The notes beneath the pieces are model-generated. The model made no database searches. It was not told where the DNA came from and saw nothing but the letters and a program-made list of their open reading frames with translations. Positions 1 to 63,876 of a stretch of DNA of 64,000 bases are shown piece by piece. Both the position numbers and the translations under genes were made by a program. The first letter of the stretch is position 1. The number at the start of each line of letters is the position of its first letter. This DNA is from Lucinisca nassula. Its lineage: Eukaryota; Mollusca; Bivalvia; Lucinida; Lucinidae. Location of the stretch: contig OY757026.1 in assembly GCA_963580285.1 (NCBI GenBank), forward strand, positions 86,216,651-86,280,650. The letters run 5' to 3'.

Positions 1-2599
1 ATTGGCAGACTTTATGTAGGTGACCACTTGTCATTGCTACATGGTAAATATCTAAGCTCTGGGCCCTGTGGTTTCAGAGAAGAAGATTTTTGAAGCTTTT
101 TTTCCATTATGAGTCTATGGGAGCTAAGGGGCCCTGGGGCGTGGCACATTTGGACCCCACGGGCATGATTGGCAGGATTTATGTAGGTGACCACTGGCCA
201 TTGCTACATGATAAATATCTCTGCTCTGGGCCCTGTGGTTTCAGAGAAGAAGATTTTTGAAGTTTTTTTTTCATTATGAGTCTATAGGAGCTAAGGGGCC
301 CCGGGGCGTGGCCCTGTTGGACCCCATGGGCATGATTGGCAGGAATTTTGTAGGTGACCACTTGCCGTTGCTACCTGCTAAATATCTAAGCTCTGGGCGC
401 TGTGGTTTCAGAGAAGAAGATTTTTTAAGTTTTTTTTTCCATTATGAGTCTATGGGAGCAAAAGGGGCCCCGGCACGTGGCCCATTTGGAACCCGGGGCA
501 TGATTGGCAGGAATTATGAAGGTAACCAATTGCCGTTGCAACATGCTACATATCTAAACTCTGGGCCCTGTGGTTTCAGAGAAGAAGATTTTTTTTTTTT
601 TTCCATTATGAGTCTATGGGAGCAAAAGGGGCCCCGGCACGTGGCCCATTTGGAACCCAGGGGCATGATTGGCAGGAATTATGAAGGTAACCAATTGCCG
701 TTGCTACATGCTACATATCTAAACTCTGGGCCCTGTGGTTTCAGAGAAGATTTTTGAACCTTTTTTTCCATTATGAGTCTATGTGAGCTAAGGGGCCCCG
801 GGGCGTGGCCCATTTGGACCCTAGTGGCATGATTGGCAGGATTTATGTAGGTGACCACTTGCCGTTGCTACATGCCAAAAACCTCAGCTCTGGACCCTGT
901 GGTTTCAGAGAAGAAGATTTTTGAAGCTTTTTTCCAATATGAGTCTATATGAGCGTAAGGGCCCCGGGGCGTTGCCGTTTGGACCCCAGGGGCATGATTG
1001 GCAGGAATTATGTAGGTGACCACTTGCCGTTGCTACATTCTAAATATCTAAGCTCTGGGCCCTGTGGTTTCAGAGAAGAAGATTTTTGAATCTTTTTTCC
1101 ATTATGAGTCTATGGGGGCTAAGGGGCCCCGGGACGTGGCCCATTTGGACCCCACGGGCATGATTGGCAGACTTTATGTAGGTGACCACTTGCCATTGCT
1201 ACATGCTAAATATCTAAGCTCTGGGCCCTGTGGTTTCAGAGAAGAAGATTTTTGAAGCTTTTTTTCCCTTTATGAGTCTATAGGAGCTAAGGGGCCCCGG
1301 GGCGTGGCCCTTTTGGACCCCAGGGGCATGATTGGCAGGAATTATATGTAGCTGACCACTTGCCGTTGCTACGTGCTAAATATCTAAGCTCTGTGCCCTG
1401 TGGTTTCAGAGAAGAAGATTTTTGAATCTTTTTTCCATTATGAGTCTATGGGGGCTAAGGGGCCCCGGGACGTGGCCCATTTGGACCCCACGGGCTGTGG
1501 TTTCAGAGAAGAAGATTTTTGAAGCTTTTTTTCCATTATGAGTCTATGGGAGCTAAGGGGCCCCGGGGCGTGGCTCATTTGGACCCTAGGGGCACGATTG
1601 GCAGGATTTATGTAGGTGACCACTTGCCGTTGCTACATGCCAAATACCTCAGCACTGGGCCCTGTGGTTTCAGAGAAGAAGATTTTTGAAGCTTTTTTTC
1701 CATTATGAGTCCATAGGAGCTAAAGGGACCCGGGGCGTGGACCGTTTGGACCCCAGGGGCATGATTGGCAGGAATTATATATGTGACCACTTGCCGTTGC
1801 TACATGCTAAATATCTAAGCTCTGGGACCTGTGGTTTCCGAGAAGAAGATTTTTGAAGCTATTTGTTCCATTATGAGTCTATGGGAGCGAAGGGGCCCCG
1901 GGCCGTCGCCAATTTGGAACCCAGGGGCATGATTTGCAGGAATTATGTAGGTGACCACTTGCCGTTGCTACATGCCAAATATCTCATCTCTGGGCCCTTT
2001 GGTTTCAGAGAAGATTTTTGAAGCTTTTTTCCATTATGAGTCTATAGGATCTAAAGGGCCCTGGGGCGTGGCCCGTTTGGACCCCAGGGGCATGATTGGC
2101 AGGAATTATGTAGGTGACCACTTGCCGTTGCTACATGCTAAATATCTAAGCTCTGGGTCCTGTGGTTTCTGAGAAGATTTTTGAAGCTTTTTTTTCCATT
2201 ATGAGTCTATCGGAGCGAAGGGGCCCCCGGGCGTGGCCAATTTGGCCCCAGGGGCATGATTGACAGGAATTATGTAGGTGACCTTTGGCCGTTGATACAT
2301 GCTAAATATCTAAGCTCTGGGCCCTGTGGTTTCAGAGAAGAAGATATTTTATTTTTTTCCCATTGTAAGTCTATGGGAGCTATATGTTGCCATGGCAATC
2401 AGAATTCCAATCTGATCAGCCCAAAAACCTTATGCAGCCTTTCCCCCTACCTGATGATGCTTCTTACGAAATTTGATCAAGATTGACCATGGGGTATTAG
2501 AGATATACTTATTCGAAATTGTTTACGGACGCACGCACGCACGACGGACAAAAAGTGATCACAAAAGCTCACCTTGTCACTACGTGACAGGTGAGCTAA
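1..2599 (+). repeat. Helitron-like 'pearl' element, 167-bp tandem body, truncated at window edge
   Basis: About 14 head-to-tail units of 167 bp, each containing GTTTCAGAGAAGAAGATTTTT, TATGAGTCTATGGGAGC, GGGGCCCCGGGGCGTGGCCC and GGTGACCACTTGCCGTTGC. After the last unit comes a distinct 3' region with a GCACGCACGCACGACGGAC tract and a terminal hairpin AGCTCACC...GGTGAGCTAA ending at 2599. Same 3' end as the elements at 24.6, 50.9 and 2.8 kb. The translated open frames here are repeat artefacts. Confidence 0.85.
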
Positions 2600-2720
2600 A
2601 AAGCAGTATGCATGAAAATTGTTTAAAACCACTTCGTATGACTGAATTAGGACCAAAATTAAATTCTGGATCGGGGATTTTCGGATCGGGATCGGGAAGG
2701 GTGATTCATACCCGACCCTA

Positions 2721-2785
2721 GAACAGTTAACAATCTGACCACTGACGAGCTCGTTAAGCTAACGATGCTTTGAACAACTGGCCCC
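2721..2785 (-). repeat. G-family MITE end fragment
   Basis: Matches the terminal 65 bp of the G element at 12.8 kb in reverse: GAGCTCGTTAAGCTAACGATG then TTTGAACAACTGGCCCC. Ends where the next tandem array begins. Confidence 0.75.
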
Positions 2786-3549
2786 TGGTGGCCGGCTATC
2801 TTGTTCAGCGGACTGAAAGCAGTTCAGCAATTTTTGTACAGGGCCATGAGAGGAACATTTCTGTGAAATTATTTTGAAATTCAGTTGTTCATTCGAAGAT
2901 TTTTTCTTTTTTGTTTTAGTGGCCATTTTGTTCAGTGGAGTGTACCCGTTTTGCAATTTAGGTAAAGGGCCATAAGGAACCTTTCTGAAAAATTGTGTTG
3001 AAATCGAGCTATCACCGTGAGAGATGTCACATTTAAAGTTGTTGTTGTTTCTTTTTTTTAGCTCTGGTGGCCATCTTAATAAGTGGAATGGAACCATTAA
3101 AAAAAAAAATCAGAACAAGGCCATGAAAGGAACATTTCAATAAAATAATTTTGAAAATAAGCCAATGGTTTAGGAGATGTTGATAAAAGATTTTTTTTCT
3201 CTATTTTTTAGCTCTGGTGGCCATCTTGGTCGGAGGAGTGGAACAATTTTAGCAATCATGGTACAGGGCCATGAGAGGAAGATTTCTGTAAAATTATTTT
3301 GAAATCGAGCAACTGGTTTGAATGATGTCATTTAGAGAGATGTCATTAAAAGATCTTTTTTTTTTCTATTTTTAGCTTTGGTGGCCATTGTGTTCAATGG
3401 AACAGAATCAGTTTAGCAATTTTGGTACAGGGCTTTCGGAGACACTATTTTGAAATTGGCTGAGTGGTGTAGATGTCATCTGAACAAATTGTGGAGGACA
3501 CACTGATGGGCAGTGATCAAAAAGCTCACCTTGTGCTCAAGCGAGCTAA
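2786..3549 (+). repeat. Helitron-like array element, AGCTCTGGTGGCCAT units
   Basis: Four to five imperfect units of about 150-165 bp, each with AGCTCTGGTGGCCATCTTG, GTACAGGGCCATGAGAGGAA and AAATTATTTTGAAATCGAGC. Ends with GATCAAAAAGCTCACCTTG...CAAGCGAGCTAA (to 3549), the same closing hairpin as the 167-bp elements, although the units are unrelated. Confidence 0.75.
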
Positions 3550-3689
3550 AAAGTCCATGCGCAATAGAGCCGAGCAAAAAAAAACCTCTCTAAAAGAACC
3601 TCTCTACAGCATTTGGGCCAAATCAATTTTTGTTTGTTTTGTTTGATTTTACAGCCCTTATAGATTTATTTCAATTATTGGTCGAGTTG
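3550..3689. other. Intergenic, possible SINE-A remnant
   Basis: Nothing coding. Bases 3640-3690 (TTTGATTTTACAGCCC then TTATTTCAATT) weakly resemble the 3' end of the SINE-A family. Too diverged to be sure. Confidence 0.3.
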
Positions 3690-3965
3690 TTTTGCATTCC
3701 AGTCAACACAATTTAAGTCACTTTAGAGTCATTGCTGCAATTTACAGGACCCGTCATTTAGATGAAATAATCTTAAGCCCTAAGGCCCAAACAAACCGCT
3801 AGGCTTTATATGTATGGACGGTCCGACTTGCACCACTCAGCCTGGGCAATCTTAAATAGAAGTGAAGGCAATGATCACGAATCAATACAATTAACCCACA
3901 GCTCCAATCAGAGACACCAAACCTTCTAAGTGGTTTACCAGTACTCCTGTTCGGTGGTTTAAGCA
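3690..3965 (-). mobile_element. B-family copy with a shared internal insert
   Basis: Degenerate but collinear with B: GTCAACAC...AGTCACTTTAGAGTC...GGACGGTCCGAC...AGCCTGGGCA. At 3851-3929 it carries about 78 bp (AATAGAAGTGAAGGCAATGA to CAGAGACACCAAA), after which B resumes (CTTCTAAGTGGTTTACCAG). The copy at 23.9-24.2 kb has the same extra segment at the same point. Confidence 0.7.
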
Positions 3966-3974
3966 CTGCAAATG

Positions 3975-4100
3975 CAAAGGCTGCTCACATCTTTTCAGCA
4001 AAAATAACAAAATTTTAAATATTAAACTTGCTAGAAAAGTTAAGAATTTGACCACTAACGAGCTCATTAAGGTAACGATGCTTTGAACAACTGGGCCCTG
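3975..4100 (-). repeat. G-family MITE half
   Basis: GCTGCTCACATCTTTTCAGC through ATTTTAAATATTAAACTTGC to TTTGAACAACTGGGCCC. This is one arm of a G element in reverse; the other arm is absent. Confidence 0.75.
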
Positions 4101-4916
4101 ATCTTCTGTTGCAGAACCTGGTGTCTCACACGTGACACAAGCAAGACTAAAATCACAATTATGAAAGCAAATCATTTTAATCTCCCTTTGGGGTGTGGAC
4201 ACAGATCTTCTGTTGCAGAAGCTAGTGTCTCACAGGTGACACAAGCAAGACAAATCACAATTATGAAAGCAAAACATTTTAATCTCCCTTTGGGGTGTGG
4301 ACCCAGATCTTCTATTGCAGAACCTTGTGTCTCACACGTGACCCGGGCAAGGCATAAACCACAATTATGAAACCAAATCATTTTACTCTCCCTTTGGGGT
4401 GTGGACCCAGATCTTCTATAGCAGAACCTTGTGTCTCACACGTGACCCGGGCAAGGCATAAACCACAATTATGAAACCAAATCATTTTACTCTCCCTTTG
4501 GGGTGTGGACCCAGACCTTCTATTGCAGAACCTAGTGTCTCACATGTGACCCAGTCCAGGCACAAACCACAATTATGAAACCAAATCATTTTACTCTCCC
4601 TTTGGGGTGTGGACCCAGATCTTCTATTGCAGAACCTGGTGTCTCACACTTAACACAAGCAAGGATCAAACCACAATAATGAAAGCAAATCATTTTAATC
4701 TCCCTTTGGGGTGTGGGTCCAGATCTTCTGTTGCAGAACCTGGTGTCTCACACATGACACAAGCAAGGTTCAAACCTCAATCATGAAACCAAATCATTTT
4801 AATCTCCCTTTGGGGTGTGAGCCCAGATCTTCTGTTGCAGAATCTGGTGTCTCACACGTGACACAAGCAAGACTCAAACCACAATAATGAAACCAAATAA
4901 TTTAAATCTCCCTTTG
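4101..4916. repeat. Tandem array of about 105-bp units derived from a SINE
   Basis: Eight units, each with ATCTTCTGTTGCAGAACC, GGTGTCTCACACGTGAC, a run CAAGCAAGACTCAAACCACA and TCCCTTTGGGGTGTGGAC. The segment from TTGCAGAAC to CAAACCACA aligns with the tRNA/body junction of SINE-A (TTGCAGAACTTGGCGTCTC, CGAGGCTCGAACCCAC, minus orientation at 9.1 and 31.3 kb). Confidence 0.8.
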
Positions 4917-5072
4917 CAGCCCCCGCCCATTGGGGCTTAAAGAAATATATTGGTTGCATGATGCTTCCACGCAGAGCTGAATCTGACCCACACACAAGTA
5001 CTGGTAAACCGCTTAGAGGATCTAAGCCTGCCCAGGCAAAGAGCATGTTAAACCTCAAATCAAACAAACAAT
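4917..5072 (+). mobile_element. B-family copy, internally deleted
   Basis: CCCCCGCCCATTGGGGCTT to TAAGCCTGCCCAGGCAAAG, then directly the tail TTAAACCTCAAATCAAACAA; the middle 150 bp are missing. Confidence 0.85.
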
Positions 5073-5201
5073 CTCCCTTTGGGGTGTGTAGATTCCCCAA
5101 AAATAAAACAAGATCAAGATATGAATGATGAAATCTTTTATTTTTTTATAAGTACACATACTTGTATAATTAAATATACACTAATAAAACAGTCACTTTT
5201 A

Positions 5202-6959: not shown

Positions 6960-7745
6960 ACCCGTACTTTACATCATTTTATCATATGGGACGCCGCGTC
7001 TGAGTGAAATAACGCCATGTAATATTTTTGATAATCCACTAGTGGATTAAATATGCAAATTAGTTAGATACGTCCTGTAACGTTACACGTACACCGTCCT
7101 TAACGACGTCGCGTTTACTTACGGCGGAATATTGATATTTTTGTAAACGTGAATAAAAAGCGTTATAAATGTCATATATATACAAGGCAATGATCAGACA
7201 GATCTGCAATGTCAAGCCACAGGACACTGTCACCATCAGGTCCAGTGAGTTACTTGAGCATCTTGGCATTGAGGAGTGGACCTCATCCTGAAAGAGAGGC
7301 GGCTTCGCTTTGGTATGGACATGTGGAACGCTCCAACGGTGCAGTCAAGTCTGCCTGTGACATACAGGTAGGTGGAAAGCGGGGGCCAGGAAGGCGCAAG
7401 ATGACCTGGAAGCAGCTAACAGAAAGAGATTGCAGAGAATGGAAGCTCTCTGCTATCGATCCTCATGATAGACAAGCCTGGAGATCTGGTGTAAGATCTG
7501 CCATGCGTGCAGCCAGCCAGATACCTGGAAGGGGGCCCACTTATGTGGACGTTGCCCCTGTACCTGCATGTTAATCAAAAATCCATTGATGATGGTTGAT
7601 GATGATAAATAGAATCTTGAATTCGTGCCCATGTTTTATTGAATTTATTTAACTCGTTGAAGAAAAGGGATAAAATGCTTGACAAAGCCTAGCATTTTAT
7701 CCCTTTACCTCAACTCGTTTAATAAATTCAATAATACATGAGCAC
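6960..7745 (-). repeat. R-family hairpin repeat, split by a LINE fragment
   Basis: 6960-7182 and 7608-7745 are the reverse of the repeat at 15938-16297: CCACTAGTGGATTAAATATG, GCGTTTACTTACGGCGGAAT, then the hairpin TTATTGAATTTATT...GGGATAAAATGC. The LINE piece lies at the ATGATAAATAG point of the intact copies. Confidence 0.8.
7183..7607 (+). mobile_element. Non-LTR retrotransposon 3' end (reverse transcriptase C-terminus)
   Basis: The plus frame across 7290-7572 reads LWYGHVERS, GPGRRKMTWKQL and DPHDRQAWR, the usual C-terminal tail after the reverse transcriptase domain of LINE proteins. It then gives [15 protein letters not shown] and stop (7573). A GATGATGGTTGATGATGAT tail follows. It is 5'-truncated; no catalytic RT motif is present. 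Two shorter copies of the same 3' end lie at 40.77-40.94 kb. Confidence 0.8.
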
Positions 7746-44200: not shown

Positions 44201-44339
44201 GGGTGTGGTATCATGTAATGTGTCTGGGACATGATACTTCAGTGAGGCAGCACTATAAATGTGAGCATTGAGCTCCCTGTCGCAACCAGACACCGTCGTG
44301 ATATGACTGAAAAATTGTTGAAAGCGACGTTAAACCCGA

Positions 44340-44377
<38 letters not shown>

Positions 44378-50300: not shown

Positions 50301-52189
50301 AGCACTATTATTTGAACAATCTTGGTAGGGGTCCACTAGATGAAGCTTCATACCAAATAGCAAATACCTGGGCCTTGCTGTTTCAGAGCAGAAGATTTTT
50401 AAAGATTTTCCCTATATAAGCCCATGTAAAACCAAAGGGCCCAGGGGCGGGGGCATTTTTGGCTCCAGCACTATAATTTGAATGATCTTGGTAGGGGTCC
50501 ACTAGATGAAGCTTCAGAGAAGAAGATTTTTAAAGATTTACCCTATATAATCCTATATAAAACCAAAGGACCCTGGGGTGGGGGCATTTTGGGCCCCAGC
50601 ACTATAATTTGAACAATCTTGGTAGGGGTCCACTAGATGAAGCTTCATACCAAATATCAAAGACCTGGGCCTTGTGGTTTCAGAGAAGAAGATTTTTTAA
50701 GTTTTTGGTGAAAAAAAATCTATTTTTGGCTCCTGTGACCTAGATGTGCAGCAGACCAGAACCATTTGAACAACTTTGAAAAGGGTCCACCTAAGGATCA
50801 TTCCTGCGAAGTTTGGTCAAAATCTGATCAGTGGTTTAGAAGGAGATGTCGTTTGAAGAAATTGTTTACGCACAGATGACAGACAAAATGTGATCCTAAT
50901 ATAAAACACAAGAGGGCCATGATGGCCCTGGATCGCTCACCTGATCCATAGAGTAACACGTGGGACCGGGGGAGGGCCATTATTAACCCCAGGGCTATAA
51001 TGTGCATAATGTTCAGAGACGTCTAAAAAGGTGAAGCTTCATACCAAATATCAACAAAGGCTATAATTTGAACAATCTTGGCAAAGGTCCACTAGATATG
51101 CTACATATCAAATATCAAAGACCTGGGCCTTGGGGTTTCAGAGAAGAAGATTTTAATTAAAGATATTCCCTATATAAGCCTATATAAAACCAAATGGCTC
51201 CAGGGGGGGGGGGCATTTTTGGCCTCAGGGCTATAATTTAAACCATCTTGATAGAGGTCCACTAGAGGAAGCTTCACACCAAATATCAAAGACCATGGCA
51301 TTGCTGTTTCAGAAGAAGATTTTTAAGGAATATCTCTATATAAGTCTATGTAAAACCAAAGGGCCCCAGGTCGGGGACAGTTTTAGCCCTAGCACTATAA
51401 TTTGAACAATCTTGGTAGGGGTCCACTAGATGATGCTTCATACCAAATAGCAAAAACCTGGCCCTTGGGGTTTCCGAGAAGAGATTTTTAAAGATTTTCC
51501 CAATATAAGCCCATGTAAAACCATAGGGCCCCGGAGCGGGGGCATTTTTAGCCCAAGCACTATAATTTGAACAATCTTGGTAGGAGTCCACTAGATGAAG
51601 CTTCATACCAAATAGCAAAGACCTGGGCCTTGTGGTTTCAGAGAAGAAGATTTTTAAAGATTTTCCCTATATAAGCCCATTTAAAACCAAAGGGCCCCGG
51701 AGTGGGGGGGGGGGGGGGGGGGGAAAGAAGGACCATGGCCATGTGGGATGAAGCTTCATACCAAATATCAAAGACATGGGCCTTACGGTTTCAGAGAAAA
51801 AAATTTTTAAAGGTTTTCCCTATATAAGCCCATGTAAAACCAAAGGGCCCCGGAGTGGGGGCATATTTGACCCCAGCACTATTGTTTGAACAATCTTGGT
51901 AGGGGTCCCCTAGATGAAGCTTCATACCAAATATCAAAGACCTGGGCCTTACGGTTTCAGAGCTAAGATTTTTAAAGCTCTTCCCTATATAAGCCCATGT
52001 AAAACCAAAGGGCCCTGGAGCGGGGGCATTTTTGGCCCCAGCACTATAATTTGAACAATCTTGGTAGGGGTCCACTAGATGAAGCTTCATACCAAATAGC
52101 AAAGACCTGGGCCTTGTGGTTTCAGAGAAGAAGATTTTTAAAGATTTTCTCTATATAAGCCCATTTATAACCAAAGGGCCCCGGAGTGT

Positions 52190-52220
<31 letters not shown>

Positions 52221-55200
52221 GGGGGGGGGAAGAAGGACCATGGCCATGTGGGATGAAGCTTCATACCAAATATCAAAGACATGGGCCTTACGGTTTCAGA
52301 GAAGAAAATTTTTAAAGGTTTTCCCTATATAAGCCCATGTAAAACCAAAGGGCCCCGGAGTGGGGGCATATTTGACCCCAGCACTATGCACTATTGTTTG
52401 AACAATCTTGGAAGGGGTCCCCTAGATGAAGCTTCATACCAAATATCAAAGACCTGGGCCTTACGGTTTCAGAGAAGAAGATTTTTAAAGCTCTTCCCTA
52501 TATAAGCCCATGTAAAACCAAAGGGCCCTGGAGCGGGGGCATTTTTGGCCCCAGCACTATAATTTGAACAATCTTGGTAGGGGTCCACTAGATGAAGCTT
52601 CATACCAAATATCAAAGACCTGGGCCTTGCGGTTTCAGAGAAGAAGATTTTTAAACATTTTCCCTATATAAGCCCATGTAAAACCAAAGGGCCCCGGAGC
52701 GGGGGCATTTTTGGCTCCAGCACTATAATTTGAACAATCTTGGTAGGGGTCCACTAGATGAAGCTTCATACCAAATATCAAAGACCTAGGCCTTACGGTT
52801 TCAGAGAAGAAGATTTTTAAAGATTTTCCCTATATAAGCCCATGTAAAACCAAAGGGCCCCGGAGCGGGGGCATTTTTGGCCCCAGCACTATAATTTGAA
52901 CAATCTTGGTAGGGGTCCACCAGATGAAGCTTCATACCAAATATCAAAGACCTGGGCCTTGTGGTTTCAGAGAAGAAGATTTTTTAAGTTTTTGGTGAAA
53001 AAAATCTATTTTTGGCTCCTGTGACCTATATGTGCAACGGACCGGAACCATTTGAACAACTTTGAAAGGGGACCACCTAAGGATCATTCCTGTGAAGTTT
53101 GGTCAAAATCCGATCAGTGGTTTAGGAGGAGATGTCGTTTAAAGAAATTGTTTACGCACGGACGGACGCACGGACGGACGCACGACGGACGACGGACAAA
53201 AAGTGATCCCAAAAGCTCACCTCGTCACTACGTGACGGTGAGCTAAAAAGTATCTCGTCGAAAGAAATTTTACAAACAAAAACACATTAACTATACTATA
53301 CTAAATAGTTCAAATTGGTCTTCTTGAAACTGCCTATACTCAGTTCATGATTGTATGCATATGTGGAAAGTGGGAGGGGTAACCCAAACTCTTGTGAAAG
53401 CTTATTTATATGACAATTCAAACTTAAAAAGGCTTTCAGCTTTCTGTAGGAGTGCATTCAACATGTGTATATAATAATAAAACACATATTTATTGGAACA
53501 GAACATATAAGAAGGACGTTTTCGCTCAATGCGTATTTCATATACTTTTTTGCTTATATTGTTTAAGGCTTAGGGTCTATATAAAAATGGCACGCTACTG
53601 AAAATCTGCTACCACAATTCGATATTACGTGCCTAGAAATGTTACAGAATACCTATAGATTGCATTTTTGCAGTCAAACCTTTTCTGGCGGGTATGTTGT
53701 GCCAGCTCAAAAAATAGTGGCCGTACAGAGATCTCCGCTTAGTCTTAACTGGCTCCTGAAGAATCTCATACTGTTTGTACATGTATATTTACAGCCCAGT
53801 GTTTTTATCAAATCTATTATTCAACAAGAGTTATGCTGTAAAAATTTATTGCATGTGGTAAAACACTGAAGTACTTTTCAGAAAAAGGATAAATTAAGTC
53901 TTCCTGTTGGTTGTAATTTAATAGACATTCGAAATCTATATCTTGATAATGATGATTAAGGAAGAAAATATACCGTAATTTCTCTAAGTATTGGGACAAA
54001 TAGGCCTGAAGGAGCAGTCTGATCAGGGTCTACACTGTTTGCCATTCCGTTTGCACCTTTTGGACTCCTTGCAGGATCATGAAACAAATTTCATAATTTT
54101 TTAGGAGAATTACAGCTCGTCCTGAAAGTGTCCGAATTTTTAGGATTTTTAAGTATAGTTTTCAATCAGCCATGAGACAAGGGCACTTATCTAAACAATA
54201 ACCAGAAAAGACCCAGCAAAGCCTGCACAGGTAACATATACAGCTAGATGTATGACTGTTCTGTTTGTTTGAAGTTCACCCACACTCTAACAGGCCTCTG
54301 TGGCCTAATGGATAAGTACCCTGACTCTTAATCATGAGGCCTCTCACTACTGTGGTTTGCACCTAGTCCTGCAACAGTAAGTCAGGTGGTTTTTCTACTG
54401 GCACACTGGTCTAGGTGAAATAACCTAGATGGTACTGTAAACACCCATCCCCCACCCGCAGAGCTCTACACTATGTCTGTGAGAAGCAAAGGCTCTGATG
54501 AGACTCAGTCAGAGGCTGACAAATCCATTGCCCAGGCCGCCCGGGACAAGTCCGAAATCGTGCCGGGCAGGTGCACTTTGACCATTCGATGCCCGGTCGG
54601 GCAAGTGCAAAAAATCTTCTACAACTGTCAGTCTTTTGAGTCCTAAAATACGGTAAAACTAGACCCGTTAGAAAATCACAATAATATCCGCTTTGTCGGC
54701 AATTCAGAGACAAAACCATCTATGTTTTTTTAACGGTTCAATCATGAGACTATTGTTAATCCCTGTCATACCAATTAAACATGATTGCCCGGTGGTGCGT
54801 GTTTCATTTCTGGTGTAGTGTGTACCACCAGTGCTATCGATAAGCGTGATAAGGTGTGAAAATAAGAAGTTATGTCTCTAATTTGCATTTGCAAAAGCTG
54901 CTCTCATTTTTTCAGCAAAAAATATAAGCATAACTTCCCCTTTTAATGATCAATCTTTTAACAATATGTTCACTAACAACATTGTTAGTTTTGAACAACT
55001 CACTCCTGGCCATTAATCAAAGGTATGCAAAAACTGAAGTGCCTGGAGAAAAGTCTTATCTGGAATTATATACAGCCTATACAACTTACTTGATTTGTAA
55101 TATCATATACGACTATTGCGGCTTGTGCTCCTCTGTAGTACATTGGAGCTAGACTGTGATACCGTTCCTGACCCGCAGTGTCCCAGATTTCAAACTTCAC

Positions 55201-56612
55201 TGTCGTATCATCTAGACATACTGTCTGTGTGAGAAATGCGGCTGGAAAATAAACAGAATTTGAAGTACATTGCAAGTAGTGGTTAGTCTTGCCAAAACAT
55301 TTTTGTGGTCAATAACCGGTTTATATGAATGGCTAATGATCAATTAACCCTTGTCCTGCTGAGCCCGGATATGTCTTATCTTTCAAACAATGAAGATCCA
55401 GATCAGATGGCTTCTGAAGAAGCCATCTGATCAGGATCTTCATTGTTTGTCATTCAACTCATGAATTTGTTGCAATAATTTGCATCAAGTAATCTGATTG
55501 GTTGATAACCAGTAGTGGCCCTACTACTAGTGGGTGTGGCATAAGGTCAAGGATTAACATAGCAACAGTTAAGTTGGGTATTTGGTGATAATTGAAGAAT
55601 GATTTTCCTTATTTCTCCATAAAAACATGTAGTGGGTATTCATTTGAACCGCCTCAATGACCCAGATCAGGATCTAAACTATTTGCTTAAATAATACAAG
55701 TATTTAAAGGAATTTAACTTTTTAAGGGTTAAATGAAAAAGTCAAGGTTCCTGTCCCGCCTACATGCAGAGACGTGCTGTCAGCATGGCCTGCCAACTCT
55801 GTTGCCCAGCTACGTGGGAACAGTCCAAACTTTGGCTGGGCAAGTGATTATTTCACTTGCCCCAAAAAATGTATACAATATACAAGGATTAATGTATTTC
55901 CAAGCCATTTTCAAGATGCTGTGGACTGCCGGGCAAGTGGTTGAAACTGGGATTTGAGCGCTTTGATTCTATATATTGTTGATAACTAACAGTTTCTGCA
56001 CCCATAAACATCACAACTTCATTATAACACTGTTCATTATAACACAGTTTTGCAAATAATACGGTTTCAAGATGAATCCCAAAATGTATAGATTATATAG
56101 AAAAATGACCATAATGGTCATTTTTCTATATAATCTATACATTTTTGTTTGGATATAACACAGATGTTTAACTGACACAGTTTTTGCTTTGGGCCCAGTT
56201 AATAATAATAGTGTTATAATGAGGTTGGGGTGTAGATGCATTAGTTTTATTAACCAATCGTATGCGTGAAACCCCGCAGAACGTGGCGTCTGATCAGGGC
56301 CTGCACTATTTGCTATCAGAATTTTCTGTCAAAAATACAATAAACACAAAAAAGGCCTGACACCCCTTATATATTGACAAATGGACTTGTCCAACATATA
56401 GCACTGGAAGAGTCCACTAGCCTACAATGGGTTAAGATACTGTGATGTATACCTCCAATTGTGCTCTCCTGGTACTCATGAAACTGGCCCTTCACAAATC
56501 TCAGCACAAGACTAGACTTTCCGACAGCTGATTCTCCTAACAACACCAACTTAAACTGACATATTTTGCCTTGTGCTGCTCCATTCGGCCTCTGGGCACC
56601 TCTTGCAGACAT
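20100..56612 (-). CDS. Rab5: Rab5 small GTPase, complete five-exon coding region
   Basis: CDS = join of 56612-56453, 55241-55090, 40603-40481, 34732-34639 and 20209-20100, read on the minus strand; 639 nt, 212 residues plus TAA. Rab5 is the early-endosome GTPase that drives endosome tethering and fusion through its effectors. Visible motifs are the P-loop GESAVGKS (residues 26-33), switch I ending in ESTIG with Thr51, WDTAGQE (73-79) with the catalytic Gln78, GNKAD (131-135), ETSAK (160-164), and a C-terminal double cysteine (210-211) for geranylgeranylation. Length is close to the usual 212-220. All introns are GT-AG and every split codon rejoins in frame. The start at 56612 gives the short Rab5-type N-terminus. 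An AATAAA on the minus strand (19732-19727), about 370 bp past the stop, is a possible polyadenylation signal. No damage is seen in the coding sequence. Confidence 0.97.
20513..22487 (+). repeat. Helitron-like element, about 130-bp tandem body
   Basis: About 12 units with GAACCATGAAATATAGGTCA, CACTGACCTAGATATATTTTG, GGGTCACATGGAACTAATAA and CAGGTATGACATTTCTCC. The 5' end has TAGCTCGCCT (20535-20544), exactly inverted at the 3' end as AGGCGAGCTA (22477-22486). Closes in CTAA followed by T. Lies about 300 bp from Rab5 exon 5, inside intron 4. Confidence 0.82.
22774..22897 (+). mobile_element. B-family 3' fragment
   Basis: GGTTTCATTGGGCAGCAGGG to ATGGGGACATTAAAGCC. Confidence 0.75.
22898..23290. 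mobile_element. C-MITE right half split by a B element
   Basis: 22898-22956 (ATCTGATCAGGATCTACAC...) and 23226-23290 (GATTGGTTGACAGACAG...CAACAGGACAAGGG) rejoin to the standard C right arm. Confidence 0.75.
22957..23225 (-). mobile_element. B-family copy with 9-bp target duplication
   Basis: Body as usual; flanked by gattggttg at 22948-22956 and 23226-23234, a sequence that occurs once in other C MITEs. This is direct evidence that B moves by insertion with SINE-like duplications. Confidence 0.88.
23572..23871 (+). mobile_element. B-family copy, full length
   Basis: GGCCCCCGCCCATAGGGGC to ACGTTAAACCTCAAATCAAA. Confidence 0.9.
23923..24170 (-). mobile_element. B-family copy with the shared insert
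   Basis: Starts GTTTAACATCCCCTTCAAC; after GCCTGGGCAGGCTTA it runs into AATAGAAGTAGCGGCAATGA...CAGAGACACCAAA, the segment also found at 3851-3929. Confidence 0.72.
24171..24444. other. Unassigned intronic DNA
   Basis: No gene supported. The 75-residue minus open frame at 24439-24212 is hydrophobic low-complexity without features. Confidence 0.35.
24449..27431. mobile_element. F2 MITE split by a 2.76-kb array element
   Basis: 24449-24572 (AACCAATTGCATGCGGGAAA... GCCAACAGAATTTTCC) and 27332-27431 (GGCCTGAAACCCCTTATAT... CAATGGG) together match the F2 copy at 56254-56431. Confidence 0.75.
24573..27331 (+). repeat. Helitron-like 'pearl' element, 167-bp tandem body
   Basis: Starts CAAGAGGACCATGATGGC, then ATCGCTCACCTGATCC. 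About 14 units of roughly 167 bp follow (GTTTCAGAGAAGAAGATTTTT, CAAAGGGCCC, ACTATAATTTGAACAATC, CACTAGATGAAGCTTCATAC). The 3' region (GGTGAAAAAATCTATTTTTG, GGACCACCTAAGGATCATTC) is present twice, at about 26817-26957 and 27073-27222. A GCACGGACGCACGG tract and the hairpin AGCTCACC...GGTGAGCTAA end it at 27331. Confidence 0.85.
27595..28210 (+). repeat. R-family repeat, hairpin unit in triplicate
   Basis: Three tandem copies of an approximately 119-bp unit (ATAGAGGATCTTACATGAG to TTTAATAAATTGTTGAC), each a hairpin on GGATAAAATGCGAGGCTTCG, then the single-copy flank as at 16.1-16.3 kb. Confidence 0.85.
28211..28385. other. Unassigned intronic DNA
   Basis: Nothing recognised. Confidence 0.3.
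28386..28768 (+). mobile_element. Y element (hAT-like MITE) with ATCGATTATC ends
   Basis: Begins AGGGCTGGCTAATCGGAGC, then AATCGATTATC motifs. The centre holds GCAAACAGTGTAGACCC / GGGTCTGCACTGTTTGC. Ends TCGATTATACGATTAATCGTG. The reverse copy is at 34808-35187. Confidence 0.72.
28791..29144. mobile_element. C-family MITE containing a short SINE
   Basis: CCCTTATCCTGCTCAACACG to TCAGAAGGATAAGGGGG; the right arm is interrupted at 28899-29033. Confidence 0.8.
28899..29033 (-). mobile_element. 135-bp SINE-like insert, 10-bp target duplication
   Basis: Direct repeats catgttggtg at 28889-28898 and 29034-29043. On the minus strand it ends GGAACATAAAACACAAACTC ACTCACT, a molluscan-SINE-type tail. 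No pol III box is seen, so it is 5'-truncated. Confidence 0.75.
29216..29523 (+). mobile_element. Compact 308-bp Helitron-like element
   Basis: CTAGAG, hairpin ATCACTAAAGGTGAT, inverted repeat ATACCCCCAC. A single body unit and a GACCGACTGACCGACCGAC tract follow, then GTGGGGGTAT inside a 3' hairpin and GACTAA. Same plan as the long arrays without tandem expansion. Confidence 0.75.
29577..29760. repeat. Degenerate C-family MITE
   Basis: ACCTTACCCTGCTGAATATA start; hairpin partly deleted (AGCTTCAGAAGCCATCTGAT). Confidence 0.65.
29761..29974. other. Unassigned A+T-rich intronic DNA
   Basis: Nothing recognised. Confidence 0.3.
29975..30440 (+). mobile_element. T element (CAAATCAC/GTGATTT palindrome)
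   Basis: Shares with 57035-57535: ACTGACTGACAAACTG, GATTTATTAC, CAACAAATCACA, GTTAGAAGAAATCCC, GTGATTTGTTGT and CCTATATAGG, in the same order over about 470 bp. Confidence 0.7.
30650..30870 (+). mobile_element. E2 MITE with AACCGCCTC hairpin
   Basis: TTATTCTTACTCCAAACATAGG, hairpin GAACCGCCTCATCGAGACGG, then GAGCAGAAATAAAGAAAAT, AGTGGGGTTTAGAGGGG and GGACTTGTTCATGTGATG. Same order at 40945-41150. Confidence 0.72.
30945..31075. mobile_element. Z foldback MITE, 131 bp
   Basis: Inverted arms of at least 26 bp, ATCATATGAGCCGGGGCACA and its complement, with a short second palindrome (GCGAAGAATCAGATCTGAGT) in the centre. Confidence 0.8.
31187..31426 (-). mobile_element. SINE-A, full copy with 12-bp target duplication
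   Basis: About 95% alike by eye to the copy at 8989-9224; T run at left. Direct repeats cactcatgatct at 31175-31186 and 31427-31438. Confidence 0.92.
31452..31640. mobile_element. D foldback MITE, uninterrupted
   Basis: ATAGCAACAGATAAG / CTTATCTGTTGCTAT ends; perfect hairpin ATTAGAACCGCCTCGTCGAG with complement around 31505-31574. Confidence 0.82.
31679..31870. mobile_element. C-family TTAA MITE, short loop
   Basis: TTAA 31675-31678 and 31871-31874. The hairpin loop has lost GAAGAAGCCATCT-type bases, leaving GGCTTCTGATCAGGATC. Confidence 0.85.
32066..32606. mobile_element. TTAA element, 541 bp, AGGTGCATTATTGAGCT ends
   Basis: TTAA 32062-32065 and 32607-32610; 17-bp perfect inverted ends AGGTGCATTATTGAGCT / AGCTCAATAATGCACCT. 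Interior has no transposase and is unlike C or F. Probably another piggyBac-type non-autonomous family. Confidence 0.8.
32626..32690. repeat. Isolated AATCGCCTC palindrome
   Basis: GGATATTTGTTAGAATCGCC / GGCGATTCTAACAAATATCC, 25-bp arms, without recognisable element ends around it. Confidence 0.75.
32759..33137 (-). mobile_element. Two adjacent B-family copies
   Basis: 32759-32830 is a tail-side fragment; 32836-33137 is full length (GATTTGTTTGATTGATTTC to CCCGATGGGCGGGGG). Confidence 0.85.
33256..34090 (+). repeat. Array element, about 134-bp units
   Basis: Six units with GGTCAAGGTCACAGGTCA, TTTTGCATGAATGTAA, CAAGGAACCTACATGCCAAA and GGTTCAAAAGTTATGACC, opened by CAAGATGTGTTTATGAAA and followed by an (CAAA)n/CAGA tract. 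Terminal hairpin not identified. Confidence 0.7.
34100..34215 (+). repeat. S-family fragment
   Basis: ATGACCATAAATTG, TGCTTGGATATAACATGGCT and GTTTAACTAAGTCCATTTTT correspond to the right half of the S element at 56.1 kb. Confidence 0.55.
34639..34732 (-). CDS. Rab5: Rab5 exon 4 (residues 146-176 plus one base)
   Basis: 94 nt from acceptor TTTTTTTCAG to donor GTGAGT. It encodes [10 protein letters not shown] through ETSAKT to the IFLAI helix, including the ETSAK nucleotide-binding loop. Its last base joins exon 5 to make Ala177. Confidence 0.95.
34808..35187 (-). mobile_element. Y element, reverse copy
   Basis: Collinear in reverse with 28386-28768; ends CTAAGGTTGGCATTATTAATC and CTCCGATTAGCCAGCCCT. 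Flanks GTATAGC/GTGTAGC could be a decayed 8-bp duplication. Confidence 0.72.
35245..35335 (-). repeat. SINE-A 3' fragment
   Basis: GGTTTGGGTTTTCAGCCCAT, AGATTATTTCACTTATATTC, GAGATGGGCGAAGACTGGAG. The head is missing; cut by the next element. Confidence 0.65.
35495..37610 (+). repeat. Second nested array, GGTTTAGGGGTGGGGATCTG units
   Basis: Opens ACAAGAGGCCCATGGGCCAC, the CAAGAG + hairpin start. Units of about 150 bp contain GCCTTTTATGAAGTGGAGGG, GGTTGGTGTCAATGAATG and TCTTATCATAAGGAACAA. The 3' terminal hairpin is not found. Confidence 0.68.
36406..37143 (+). mobile_element. CTAGAG Helitron-like element inside the array
   Basis: CTAGAG, hairpin GTCAGTGAAACTGAC, TAGGGCCCCGGC; three body units with ACATTATGGTTAACATTTC and ATGACCTTGACCTTTGAGG; three GGACGGACAGACGG tracts; hairpin CACTTTCAGTG and GCGGGGCCCTAA. 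Left flank A, right flank T; empty site AAGGAACAA|TAATATATATGG is seen at about 37570-37590. Confidence 0.82.
37963..39245 (+). repeat. Helitron-like array, about 180-bp units, GTCGCACCTGCT ends
   Basis: 5' hairpin TTCAACTTCGGTGAAGTTGA, then GTCGCACCTGCT. About six units follow with GACTAAGTTCACAATGTGG, CCACATGCGCATCCTCATAC and GAGGAGTTGCGATGACAAGA, then a (GGAC)n tract and CCTGCTAAAGCAGGTGCGAC. The 169-residue minus open frame here is an artefact of in-frame units. Confidence 0.78.
39560..39600. repeat. Half of a pogo-type hairpin
   Basis: GAATGTATGCTGTGTGTACTC is one arm of the palindrome found at 11.0 and 17.0 kb; the second arm is missing. Confidence 0.5.
39633..39927 (+). mobile_element. 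B-family copy, full length
   Basis: GGCCCCCGCCCATCGGGGC to ACGTTAAACCTCAAATCAAA. Confidence 0.9.
40227..40430. mobile_element. C-family TTAA MITE beside Rab5 exon 3
   Basis: TTAA 40223-40226 and 40431-40434; hairpin TCAGATGGCTTCTGAGAAGC. Its right end is 50 bp from the exon 3 donor. Confidence 0.88.
40481..40603 (-). CDS. Rab5: Rab5 exon 3 (residues 105-145)
   Basis: 123 nt, phase 0 at both ends, acceptor TTTTACAG and donor GTAAGT. It encodes the [11 protein letters not shown] helix and the guanine-specificity motif GNKAD. The plus-strand open frame across this exon is a shadow. Confidence 0.96.
40755..40940 (-). mobile_element. Two LINE 3'-end fragments
   Basis: Reverse of the 7.5-kb LINE end: GGGGGCCCACGTATGTGGAC and AAATCCGTTGATGATGATTT in 40775-40858, and a second copy of the same end at 40884-40937. 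Confidence 0.72.
40945..41150 (+). mobile_element. E2 MITE
   Basis: Hairpin TTAGAACCGCCTCATTGAGG with complement, GGAGCAGAAATAAGAAAAAT, AGTGGGGTTTAGGGGGG, GGACTTGTTCACGTGATG. Confidence 0.72.
41151..41589. other. Unassigned intronic DNA
   Basis: No recognised family or exon. Confidence 0.3.
41590..41870 (-). repeat. Reverse fragment of the GGTTTAGGGGTGGGG array family
   Basis: CCTGGGGCTATGCCCCACC, GCATGCCCCACCC-like and CCCAACCCCTAAACCATATA are the complement of units at 35.5-37.6 kb; two units. Confidence 0.65.
41951..42184 (+). mobile_element. G-family MITE
   Basis: GGCCCAGTTGTTCAAAGCAT to TTAGTTTTGAACAACTAG; hairpin AAATGTGAGCAGC / GCTGCTCAGATTT. Confidence 0.8.
42185..43010. other. Unassigned intronic DNA 3' of the pseudogene
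   Basis: Contains a short direct repeat GGTACCCCACCCACTACTGCATATA at 42887-42938. Possible old 3' flank of the pseudogene. Nothing else recognised. Confidence 0.35.
44022..44372 (+). mobile_element. tRNA-derived SINE inserted in the pseudogene
   Basis: The head has a pol III A box (TAGCTCAGTTGGTAGAG) and B box (GGTTCGACCCC); a middle region follows, then GCGACGTTAAACCCG and a (CA)n tail. It is flanked by the 13-bp direct repeat cactgttttggaa (44009-44021 and 44373-44385). Removing the element and one repeat rejoins the host reading frame across PKQ-WTKY. The cloverleaf is imperfect, so this is a SINE head and not a functional tRNA. Confidence 0.92.
45880..46245. mobile_element. E-family MITE, diverged, two hairpins
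   Basis: Starts with the E-family terminal CACGAAAACATGCCTATA and ends in the AATAGGCGGTTTTTTTGTGG-like complement. It contains two copies of the AACCGCCTC/GAGGCGGTT type palindrome (near 46012-46040 and 46085-46115), where other copies have one. Confidence 0.6.
46287..46566 (+). mobile_element. B-family SINE-like element
   Basis: Runs from CCCCCGTCCATCGGGGCTT through GGGCTTGAGATGTCATTTC to a decayed GTTGACGAGGG...CAATCAAAATC tail. Nested in the inverted-repeat element, itself inside the hAT-like element, itself inside the pseudogene in a Rab5 intron. Confidence 0.8.
47211..47446 (+). pseudogene. hAT-type transposase N-terminal fragment
   Basis: After a strong splice-acceptor-like tract (TTTTTTTTCTTCCTCTAG, to 47210) the plus frame reads a Ser-rich linker and then [13 protein letters not shown], which looks like the start of the zinc-finger region of C17orf113/ZMYM-like hAT-derived proteins. 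The expected cysteines do not follow and the frame ends within 40 residues. It is a truncated exon of an internally deleted transposon. Confidence 0.45.
48642..49238. other. Unassigned DNA upstream of the pseudogene
   Basis: May hold upstream exons or promoter of the ancestral gene, but no homologous segment is visible. T run at 48900-48910. Confidence 0.3.
49239..50899 (+). repeat. Helitron-like 'pearl' element, 167-bp family, 3' end lost
   Basis: CAAGAGGACCCAAAGGGCCC, ATCGCTCACCTGAG, about eight units, the GGTGAAAAAAAATC 3' region and TTTACGCACAGATGACAGAC. It lacks the closing hairpin; the next element begins 10 bp later. Confidence 0.82.
50909..53246 (+). repeat. Helitron-like 'pearl' element, 167-bp family, complete
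   Basis: CAAGAGGGCCATGATGGCCC start, ATCGCTCACCTGATCC, about 12 units, 3' region, GGACGCACGGACGGACGC tract, and AGCTCACC...GTGACGGTGAGCTAA end at 53246. A block from about 51640 to 51960 is repeated at 52110-52470, each with a long G run (51706-51723; 52205-52229). Confidence 0.87.
53247..53975. other. Unassigned intronic DNA
   Basis: A+T-rich, no gene or repeat recognised. Confidence 0.35.
53976..54160 (+). mobile_element. X element, uninterrupted
   Basis: CTCTAAGTATTGGGACAAAT, GATCAGGGTCTACACTGTTT, AAACAAATTTCATAATTTTT, GGAGAATTACAGCTCGTCCT. Serves as the empty site for the nested copy at 9.5 kb. Confidence 0.72.
54290..54440 (+). mobile_element. SINE-A, 5' portion
   Basis: AGGCCTCTGTGGCCTAATGG head, degraded B box, GCAACAGTAAGTCAGGTGG, GGTTTTTCTACTGG. 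3' end lost. Confidence 0.75.
54722..55003 (+). repeat. V repeat joined to a G-MITE fragment
   Basis: 54722-54885 (TTTAACGGTTCAATCATGAG, ACTATTGTTAATCCCTG, GATAAGGTGTGAAAATA) recurs at 59340-59450. 54890-55003 is a G right arm ending AGTTTTGAACAACTC. Confidence 0.65.
55090..55241 (-). CDS. Rab5: Rab5 exon 2 (residues 54-104)
   Basis: 152 nt from acceptor TTTTCCAG to donor GTAAGT. It encodes the effector strand, WDTAGQE and the segment through DITN. The first two bases complete Ala54. Intron 1 upstream is only 1.2 kb. Intron 2 downstream is 14.5 kb and contains the pseudogene at 43-48.6 kb. Confidence 0.96.
55348..55690. mobile_element. C-family MITE adjoining a D fragment (Rab5 intron 1 / exon 2 side)
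   Basis: C: TTAA 55344-55347 and 55554-55557, ends CCCTTGTCCTGCTGAGCCC / AAGGTCAAGGA with a small deletion. D fragment 55559-55670: ATAGCAACAGTTAAG, GTGGGTATTCATTTGAACCG. Confidence 0.78.
56020..56221. mobile_element. S MITE with long perfect hairpin
   Basis: Ends CATTATAACAC / GTGTTATAATG; hairpin arms GTATAGATTATATAGAAAAA with TGACCAT-ATGGTCA centre (about 56089-56147). Confidence 0.75.
56254..56431. mobile_element. F2 MITE between Rab5 exons 1 and 2
   Basis: TTAA 56250-56253 and 56432-56435. Left palindrome arm deleted. Ends 17 bp before the exon 1 donor. Confidence 0.78.
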
Positions 56613-61430: not shown

Positions 61431-62190
61431 AGGATAGAACCAAGGGCCACGTAAAATCAATTTAATACACCCCCCCCCCCCCCCCCCCCCGCCAGTATTT
61501 TTTTCACTGACCGTAACCAGTACAGCACACGTCCTTTCGGGCCAGAAACTGACAAATGCCCTTCTTGAATCAGCGCAAGGGAGAAGGTGGCCATAGAGAA
61601 GATTTCACGATCATCTCCCGTCTCTTAGTCTTTTTAAGGTCCGATTATAAATTCGTCAACGTAGGCGCGGCCTGGTCATTATTTGTATTTTTTTTTTTTG
61701 TTCTTTTGCGGGCCGTTGTAATTGCCACATAGTTTTCCGGGATGCGGCGATTCGTTAGATTTACATGCGCACCCGGCTATGACTCGGATCAGCCTGCGCA
61801 TTTGCGCAGTCTGATCTTGGTCTTCGCTGTGCGCGCTTTGGATGGCTGGAAAACAAAACAAACCCATAAAACCCCCAAGAGAATATGAGCGACAGCGTAT
61901 TAATGTAAAGACCTTTTCGTATGCAATAACCGTCTGTGCTCGAAAATAATCAATGACATCACGTGTTGCTGTAGAATCAATGAGGAACGTTATGGAAAAA
62001 GTTGCATGTCACTAATTGGAAAACAAACTGTCAGCGCTCCATATAAGGGGTCAATAGTTTGCTAAAACGGGTTCACATTTGAAACGCCTCGGTGAGGCTA
62101 ATCTAACTGAATATGGCTGATGTCTTTAGTCAAGTCTGCTCCAACTGTTCTATATGGGTACCCATAATCATAAGATCTGGTACTAAAGCG
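61431..62190. other. Unassigned flank with poly-C tract and U core
   Basis: C run at 61471-61490. 61775-61835 (GGATCAGCCTGCGCATTTGC / GCGCAGTCTGATCTTGG) is a U-type palindrome. A truncated extra copy of the GTTCACATTTGAAACGCCTC motif is at 62070-62094. Confidence 0.4.
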
Positions 62191-62194
62191 CTGA

Positions 62195-62575
62195 TGAAAC
62201 GGTATCGAGGTCAAGAGTAGACACAAACCGGTCATCTCAGCTACAAAGTGGCAGCAAATTAAAAAGTGCTGATCAGACTCATGGACGCCCAGGCTGACCG
62301 GCCCTTTTGTTGCACGAAAATAATGGAACAGGTTTTCTCATGACGGGGCACATTATTGCTGAGCGATGGGGTCTGACTGTTCCATTGCGTTTTTGCGGGT
62401 TTACATATGAAACGCCTCTGCGAGGCTAGCTAAACTAATGGTCAATTAAGTCGTTTATCAACCAGTGTGCCATCTGATCAGTCTTGGTAATCTTCAAAGT
62501 GTCTATTCTGCTCCTACTATACTGTGTATCAGTTTAACCCCTGCTTCTATTATCATGACTCAAAAAAGCGCACAG
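62195..62575 (+). repeat. Second copy of the 0.4-kb block
   Basis: Matches 60850-61250: ACACAAACCGGTCATCTC, AATTAAAAAGTGCTG, TCATGACGGGGCACATT, GAGCGATGGGGTCTG, GAAACGCCTCTGCGAGGCTA, CTATTATCATGACTCAAA. Confidence 0.82.
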
Positions 62576-62814
62576 CAAAAAGAAAAAGAAAAAACTAGAA
62601 AAAGTGTCCATAGGACACGGATGCCCCGCCAAATGCCATTCATGAAACGGTTTACTATATGGAACTAAATCAAGGGCAGATAATTCAAAAACCAAAAATG
62701 CAAGAGTTGTCTTCCTTGTTCATGACACATCGTCTGATGAATGCACCTGTGAAGTTTCATGAATATATTCCATATGGTTTAGGAGTTATGGCCCGGACAC
62801 GGTTTACTATATGT

Positions 62815-63112
62815 GGCCCCCGCCCATAGGGGCTTAAAGAAATATATGGGCTGCATGATGCTTCCACGCAGAGCTGAATCCGGCCCGCACACTAGCACTG
62901 GTAAACAGTTAAGAGGATCTAAGCCTGTCCAGGAACCGCCGTGCGAGGCGGACCGTCCATGCTAATAAACCCTATCGGTTTCATTGGGTGACAGGGCTTG
63001 AGATGTCATTTCGTCTCAATGTCGGGTAAAAGTCCCACAAAATTGGAAGCAACGTCTCCAAAATGACCTTTACAGTGTTGGCGGGGACGTTAAACCTCAA
63101 ATCAAACAAAAA
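62815..63112 (+). mobile_element. B-family copy in the array
   Basis: GGCCCCCGCCCATAGGGGC to TTAAACCTCAAATCAAACAA; directly followed by the next element. Confidence 0.9.
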
Positions 63113-63876
63113 CTAGAGCTGTCAGTGAAACTGACTATGGCCCCGACAGCGCTATCAGAGGAGTAGGAAAATGTTGATGTTAAAATAGACGTTTTTTTTT
63201 TTCCTTTCACCTCTAAGTATGACCTTGACCTTTGAGGTACGGACCTCGGTCTTGCGCATGACACACTGTCACATTATGGTTAATATTTCTGCTAAGTAAT
63301 ATTTAAATCCATCCAGGTATAAGAAAGTTATAGATTGGACACAATAAAAAAGACGCTTTTTTGACCTTTTATCTCTAAGTATGACCTTTGAGGTACGGCT
63401 GTGGGTCTTGCGTGTGACACTTCGTCACATTATGGTTAACATTTCTGCCAAGTAATATTTAAATCCATCCAGGAATAATAACAAAGTTATTAATTGGACA
63501 CAGGAAAGACCCTTTTTTGACCTTTAACCTCTAAGTATGACCTTGACCTTTGAGGTACCGACCTGAGTCTTGCGCGCAACACTCCATCACATTATGGTTA
63601 ACATTTCTGCCAAGTAATATTTAAATCCATCCAGGAATAAGAAAGTTATGGAGGATAAAAAAATTTGTGGCCGGACAGACGGACAGACAGACAGACAGAC
63701 AGACGGACGGACAGAGTGATGCCAAGTAATATTTAAATCCATCCAGGAATAATAAAAAGTTATGGAGGATAAAAAAATTTGTGGACGGACAGACGGACAG
63801 ACAGACAGACAGACGGACGGACGGACGGACAGAGTGATTACTATAGGGCACCCACACTTTCAGTGCGGGGCCCTAA
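63113..63876 (+). mobile_element. CTAGAG Helitron-like element, second copy
   Basis: CTAGAG + GTCAGTGAAACTGAC hairpin to GCGGGGCCCTAA; 764 bp, more body units than at 36.4 kb, with duplicated GGACAGACGG tracts (63671-63714 and 63784-63832). Confidence 0.83.

Follow-up and report, generated by a model that had tools for sequence, protein, structure and literature searches.

The closest described relatives of the elements treated here are the Helentron-associated interspersed elements (HINEs) of the oyster Crassostrea gigas, of which 11 have been reported (Cg_HINE, PMC7492417). On the 5' side of Cg_HINE a subterminal inverted repeat (subTIR) is followed by its complement and a microsatellite, of GTCY type in several elements, and on the 3' side a subTIR is followed by a palindrome; central repeats of 140-180 bp stand between them in fixed orientation, insertion is at TT without target site duplication, and several end families exist per genome, with related ends around unrelated repeats and a group 2 of common flanks and differing repeats (PMC7492417). 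Mixed or multiple arrays within one oyster element are also mentioned (PMC12628747), and the pearl family, DTC84 and MgE of bivalves are described as short arrays of ~160-bp repeats between conserved flanks (as reviewed in PMC7492417). The DINE-1/HINE elements and Helentrons of fly, mite and mosquito have subTIRs, a 3' stem loop and a TT target, and the HINEs among them are deletion derivatives of elements encoding Rep, helicase and endonuclease (PMC4067079). Satellite-bearing HINEs are abundant in oyster genomes and these papers gave no source of their movement: the oyster HINEs could not be related to any autonomous Helentron (PMC7492417), and no autonomous copies were reported there, Helitrons being judged likely inactive (PMC7992393). 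Here we analyze a stretch of 64,000 nucleotides (the window) from the bivalve Lucinisca nassula (contig OY757026.1, positions 86,216,651 to 86,280,650), in which elements of this kind recur, and find that the same genome holds autonomous Helentrons with ends common to the window's families D, A and F.

The first-pass annotation of the window had noted one terminal plan at seven intervals and assigned the elements to the HINE/DINE-1-like, Helentron-associated class. The plan is real and the class is right: elements at all seven intervals have inverted subterminal words and a hairpin at one end, and most of them a palindrome at the other end and a GACR tract. They fall into five end families, all lying on the minus strand: A (24573-27329, complete, with a 166-bp body, and 50909-53244, also complete), B (20513-22485, with 128-bp units and a 10-nt subTIR pair), C (29216-29517, a short element with no array), D (36406-37141 and 63113-63874) and E (37962-39244, with a 181-bp body, inserted in a 157-bp unit). 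We are confident that they are HINEs, that is, non-autonomous rolling-circle transposons of the Helentron group, which are read in the window opposite to their own polarity. The likeness to Cg_HINE is one of description and extends to the layout of the ends, the length and fixed orientation of the repeats, the TT target, the variety of end families and the occurrence of related ends around unlike repeats; that to pearl, DTC84 and MgE, likewise one of description, lies in the short repeat arrays between conserved flanks. Unlike Cg_HINE, families D and A and the 3' end of family F have partners here.

The autonomous partners were found by searching the assembly (2.93 Gb in 696 contigs) with Helitron_like_N. 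Among the best 150 of 2,091 candidates, which were scored, many lay in open frames near 2,500 aa, and there was no match in 14 control genomes. When Rep-bearing matches, grouped roughly by score and coverage, were compared, 14 of 18 copies lost identity within a few bases of a HINE end (two of group F1, two F3, three F4, three F5 and four of the L034 type); no own end was found for the remaining four (two F2, L037 and L038). The partner of family A, F1, is present in two copies, on C1 and C3, which show 99.7-99.97% identity across the five stretches that were compared (about 17 kb) and have flanks that diverge on both sides. It measures ~23.0 kb (C1:162616205 to about 162639202), begins with AGCTCACC, then GGTGAGCT and a GTCY-like tract, and ends with GGTGAGCGATCCAGGGCCATCATGGCCCTCTTG. 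Its 3' end agrees with the window's A elements at 39/40 nt (50909) and 37/40 nt (24573), its 5' end has the same subTIR and inverted repeat (IR) words as family A, and a single open frame encodes Rep, a PIF1 helicase and a C-terminal endonuclease (Pfam Exo_endo_phos, E 1e-5).

The partner of family D, the L034 type, shares even more with its HINEs, namely both ends and the body. Four Rep-bearing copies (L075, L083, L084 and L085) reach the D 3' end and then diverge, and the 5' end of one (L087, position 1208) consists of the D hairpin, GTCY and D units, matching at 94% over 516 nt and 98.8% over 334 nt. The whole spans about 10.5 kb (C13:81007885 to 81018386) and encodes Rep and PIF1; in the copy read, an in-frame stop separates these from the endonuclease (Pfam, E 2.4e-8), which lies in the open stretch that follows. 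Members of F3 (two copies), F4 (three) and F5 (three) stop at the 3' end of family F, with which they are identical at 27/27 nt. The Helentron Rep signature as given in PMC4067079, RGSPHxH at motif 2, is present in F1 and the L034-type copies. That Rep-bearing copies with long open frames are nearly identical and share HINE ends points to recent activity. A single-copy candidate for family H is L112, of the L037 group, with an H-like end 5.05 kb after the start of the Rep domain. In the 3' regions of L038, L030 and the group of 2828 aa, one copy of each being read, no 3' end was found, and the two-copy comparison of F2 did not reach an own 3' end and revealed an A-type insertion after the open reading frame (ORF) together with its empty site.

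Some further features of these Rep-bearing elements deserve mention. Within the 23-kb Helentron, at about 7962 of L067, a further hairpin resembling a 5' end (TTAGCTCACCTGAATGAGCT) follows 3.2 kb after the first and is shorter than it. In the D-type Helentron, a 69-bp tandem repeat upstream of the Rep domain is arranged differently in L087 and L088 (about 3800-5000). On C12, a different Rep domain, with RGWPH, is preceded at a distance of 1.1-1.5 kb by units like the family D body (L031, positions 24-447), which may be a nested HINE or a part of that element. The Rep match of L029, at 187.7 bits far above the rest, has RGLPHCH, the canonical Helitron form, so that both kinds seem to exist in the genome.

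The partners also settle the polarity of the HINEs. In the window, the low-coordinate end usually has the palindrome, and the high-coordinate end has the subterminal word with its complement hairpin and an adjoining GACR tract, which fits the Cg_HINE layout on the minus strand. The annotation's 5' and 3' labels are therefore reversed, its 3' hairpin being the Helentron 5' end. This is confirmed by the autonomous elements, in which the Rep gene is preceded by the GTCY end and followed by the end with the palindrome. In its own polarity a HINE would run from the 5' subTIR through a nearby complement (forming the 5' hairpin), a GTCY microsatellite and an array or single body to the 3' subTIR, a 3' palindrome, CTCTAG, CTCTTG or CTGG, and a T-rich flank. 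Consistent with this order, subTIRs of 7-13 nt occur at both ends, an IR complementary to the 5' subTIR is joined by a microsatellite on the 5' side, and tracts of GTCY type are present in A, C, D, E and X and degenerate in B. Folding was compared with 200 letter shuffles per end: in 8 of 10 5' ends the hairpin was matched by only 0-3 shuffles, and among 11 3' palindromes only those of E6, A_E7 and H were matched by fewer than 10. By eye, a 3' palindrome can be made out in A, C, D, E, F and H; none was seen in B or G. When all 120 assignments of 5' to 3' words were scored for families A-E, the elements' own pairing was the unique best (score 47, next 43). Two motifs that the annotation had taken as common to the ends fared differently. 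The start CTAGAG or CAAGAG stands in five of the seven elements and is replaced by CCAGAA in E and about CAAATA in B, and the closing CTAA is no common end at all, being a subterminal repeat plus target AA.

The ends were defined further from genome copies of families C, E and B. For C, the best 40 of 1,975 candidates were scored, and the 41 matches listed (the window copy itself aside) are 95-98% identical to it. All 20 copies fetched with flanks have the same two ends as the window element, with one-base variants in two: AA, then CTAGAG (TTAGAG in one) to GTAT (GAAT in one), then AA, after which the sequences diverge. The window copy is the exception, with GACTAA where the others have AA after the hairpin, which shows that CTAA is not an element end. 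For E (best 40 of 2,796 candidates scored), 38 of the 40 copies, the window's included, are full length, from query 1 or 2 to 1281 or 1282, at 96-100%. The nine copies fetched with their ends all run from CCAGAA to GCGAC (GTGAC in one), AA preceding the start in eight and following the end in nine. Family B is older: among the best 40 of 5,960 candidates, the 39 other copies are all at 80-88%, and 22 match from query 442-445 on and four reach before query 70. As most begin at query 442-445, the low-coordinate (CAAATA) side of B is poorly supported, and this end of the window element is uncertain.

Insertion sites were examined by joining the flanks with one AA and aligning them to uninterrupted relatives. 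Gap-free empty sites, clear ones in family C, were obtained for four of the 20 C copies (L009, L012, L027 and L028) and for four of the nine E copies (0, 3, 5 and 6). In the window, the D element at 36406-37141 has a gap-free empty site in the unit at 37502-37617 and in others (three units shown of six hits), and the E element has one at 37725-37882, gap-free though mismatched right at the junction; for the A element at 24573 there is an approximate, paralogous one only (56278-56403). Matches for C copies L011 and L025 and E copy 4 were weak or odd only. In C, D and E, the empty sites hold one AA where filled sites have AA on both sides, which indicates insertion at TT; no target duplication extends beyond TT in these families, in line with the annotation's expectation of none, and a 2-bp duplication of TT is indistinguishable from T residues of the element.

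Given these partners, the origin of the bodies can be addressed. The annotation had stated that the 167-bp units and the others do not align, and had seen matched end pairs with unrelated, exchangeable bodies as new. The first statement is wrong for the 167-bp and 166-bp units, which are homologous in pairwise alignment (z 22-32), and for the 157-bp unit, which aligns with a unit at 62.65 kb (z 13.7). Weak same-strand likenesses among the other body units are many, and we do not count them as homology, some reverse-strand controls being equal to them, with z up to 5.5. As to novelty, matched end pairs with different bodies in one genome were already published for oyster (PMC7492417), as were the architecture, the variety of end families and the TT target (PMC7492417, PMC4067079). 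What is new here are the autonomous partner elements and the origin of the bodies; in the open-licence literature, as far as available (including PMC11136912, PMC8268682, PMC10294476, PMC9646362 and PMC5139131), we found no earlier work on autonomous HINE partners in bivalves.

The 762-bp D element at 63113 (as a 766-nt query) is an internal-deletion derivative of the 10.5-kb Helentron: nt 3-497 are 94% identical to its 5' part, its arrays match nt 398-684 at 85-89%, and its 3' end is found again, at 97.3% identity, in the last 73 nt. In the other D element, at 36406-37141, the junction is placed differently, 59 nt before the end. A family D HINE thus consists of both termini of the autonomous element, the region between them having been lost. 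In the 23-kb Helentron, the stretch from the 5' end to the ORF contains four arrays with units above 100 bp, namely 145 bp (7.1 units), 126 bp (7.2), 166 bp (2.9) and 156 bp (4.5), the 126-bp array being homologous to the body of a family G element at 33.4 kb (73-95% in pieces). An exchange is seen in L071, where an element inserted in one F2 copy joins an F1-type 5' end and 4.7 units of the 145-bp array (87%) abruptly to the family A 166-bp body (92%, 7.2 units to the end of the fetched stretch, within which no 3' end was seen); the other F2 copy is without this insertion on the side seen. Bodies can therefore be exchanged, and the D body and the L071 chimera together show that they are inherited in one case and recombined in another. 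Of the annotation's unrelated, exchangeable bodies, the exchange stands, in at least one case, and the unrelatedness does not, two bodies being homologous and that of D inherited. Alternatively, bodies might have been captured independently from genomic satellites as filler DNA rather than inherited from autonomous Helentrons; the abrupt junction of the 145-bp and 166-bp arrays in L071 would suit this, and capture or replacement has been discussed for divergent repeats on related flanks (PMC7492417). However, the body of the family D HINE is that of its autonomous partner, and the 23-kb Helentron has its four arrays before the ORF, one of them homologous to the G body, so that we consider capture possible though unlikely. 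At least two autonomous elements carry such arrays and thus offer a source for them. In this the genome differs from those of PMC4067079, where simple or tandem repeats are described in some HINE copies; here satellite-like arrays lie by the 5' end of two autonomous elements.

A degenerate box of ~47 nt (CATAACTCnnnAACC, about 15 nt, ATnAAACTTnGCA) recurs in many bodies. With 400 shuffles each, p <= 0.03 on the own strand was reached by nine of 11 held-out families, namely H, X, L, Ap, E1p, C, D, G and A, and the box failed this test in E (p 0.51) and in the 156-bp array of the 23-kb element (p 0.34). Of the controls, the reverse strand passed in one of 11, and on the forward strand none of eight control stretches fell below 0.05 (lowest 0.057). 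The training words were chosen by eye with all families in view, near relatives being dropped for A and X/H only, and the best match in D and A differs from the chosen word. Among seven further bodies the box passes in the 126-bp array only and fails in B (twice), F147, F144 and the 145-bp and 166-bp arrays. A literature search for the box sequence brought up no work on repeats of this kind by title. We regard the box as a lead. It is tempting to speculate, although we find it rather doubtful, that the satellite-like repeats of bivalves are standing parts of autonomous Helentrons, arranged as consecutive arrays by the 5' end, that are handed down or recombined into HINEs and not captured, the box perhaps being a working site; it could serve second-strand synthesis, or Rep or a host factor. 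Such a role, if true, would account for the similar unit length and orientation of arrays that are otherwise unlike.

Two other explanations concern the elements as a whole. The 23-kb and 10.5-kb stretches might be segmental duplications or chimeras in which HINE ends just happen to lie close to Rep genes. HINEs are very abundant, which makes chance proximity possible, and an A-type element is indeed inserted after the F2 ORF. Yet in 14 of the 18 Rep-bearing copies the identity breaks off at the HINE end or a few bases from it, on which ground chance proximity was set aside, and F1 could be delimited at both outer ends in two copies and the D partner in one; we judge this explanation very improbable. 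Finally, miniature inverted-repeat transposable elements with terminal inverted repeats, mobilized by a transposase of the cut-and-paste type that duplicates a short TT target, might account for the inverted words close to both ends and for the AA on both sides of all 20 C copies, readable as a 2-bp TT duplication, but are extremely unlikely and were set aside, as the inverted words are subterminal, nothing beyond TT is duplicated, the two ends differ in structure (hairpin and GTCY against palindrome and CTCTAG) and elements encoding Rep, PIF1 and endonuclease are delimited by these same ends. To our knowledge, there are no DDE transposons with TT duplications and such ends.

Several observations nevertheless weigh against the interpretation of the window elements as HINEs served by these Helentrons. 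At the ends themselves, the 5' hairpins of E and G do not clearly exceed chance (matched by 43 and 75 of 200 shuffles), eight of the 11 3' palindromes are not clearly better than their shuffles, and the common subTIR words are mostly of 7-10 nt (13 in C) versus 11-12 in oyster. No empty site was found for 14 of the 20 C copies, for four of the nine E copies or for the window's B, C, A (50909) and D (63113) elements. As to the partners, the 5' end of F1 is only 72% identical to that of A HINEs over 58 nt, which makes F1 a relative of these and not their direct parent; the 5' end of the D partner was seen in one copy only, a second fetched copy being partly masked; and the F partners are matched at the 3' end only, the 5' ends of F3-F5 not having been reached. 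Among F3-F5, helicase and endonuclease were scanned for in F4 only, with PIF1 found and an endonuclease match below the Pfam cut-off (E 0.012), and Rep motif 2 was read only in other groups. Among the Rep-bearing groups examined, none proved to be a partner of B, C, E, G or X.

For the HINE interpretation, the structures suggest the following scheme. An autonomous Rep would nick the HINE ends, copy the element by rolling circle and insert it at TT; the bodies would stem from arrays beside the 5' end of autonomous elements, sometimes recombined between families; and the subTIR words, differing between families, would show by which Rep lineage each family is served. With HINE ends present on Rep-bearing copies, this correspondence of Rep lineage and end sequence becomes testable.

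Beyond the seven intervals, further ends, likewise on the minus strand, lie at 2.6, 33.3-34.1, 35.5, 39.46, 49.2 and 62.6 kb. A family A HINE with 167-bp units (1-2597) has its 3' end outside the window and its Helentron 5' end (subTIR AGCTCACCT, IR and GTCY-like tract) at 2597, where the LF hairpin (2566-2597) is matched by 0 of 200 shuffles. The family G element (33256-34106), with 129-bp units, has kept the IR and the 3' subTIR, its 5' subTIR being missing or decayed. At 35497-35531 is a family F 3' end (palindrome GTGGCCCATGGGCC, CTCTTG), that matched by F3-F5, belonging to an element with 147-bp units whose 5' end was not found in the window. Inside one of these units lies the D element at 36406-37141, which has three 5' hairpins (37140, 36670 and 36558) and one 3' end and in this resembles plant Helitron arrays with multiple 5' ends and a single 3' end (Xiong 2016, as cited in PMC12628747); unlike those long arrays, it is one short Helentron element. 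A family X 5' end (39410-39458; subTIR TATCCCCGA, IR and GTCY) has a fold matched by three of 200 shuffles, and its partner end was not found in the window. The 3' end of family H (62595-62640; palindrome GTGTCC-ATA-GGACAC, TTTTTCTAG) is the one resembled by the end near the Rep domain in L112. A family A HINE at 49239-50899, without a 5' hairpin of its own, adjoins the 3' end of the A element at 50909, so that two A elements stand head to tail with 9 bp between them; the pair might be a read-through product.

Other repeats and genes are interspersed with these elements. At 27597-27975, three head-to-tail 128-bp units (98% matches) each contain a long palindrome (GAGGAAAAGGGATAAAATGC), and similar palindromes occur at 7664 and 15981. 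Dispersed palindromes around GATCAGATGGCTTC, several flanked by GTGTAGATCC, form a separate, unclassed repeat family (5313, 9738, 10167, 15105, 17662, 19564, 40280, 55401 and others). On the minus strand at 43011-48641, open frames are clustered and may be the remains of a mobile-element gene; one frame is weakly like DUF6589 (E 1e-4, below the cut-off) and four others scanned gave no Pfam match. An abundant repeat of ~300 bp (GGCCCCCGCCCATAGGGGCTTGAAGAAATA...) is found at 23.6-23.9, 39.6-39.9 and 62.8-63.1 kb, in L059 and L060, and also inside the 23-kb Helentron.

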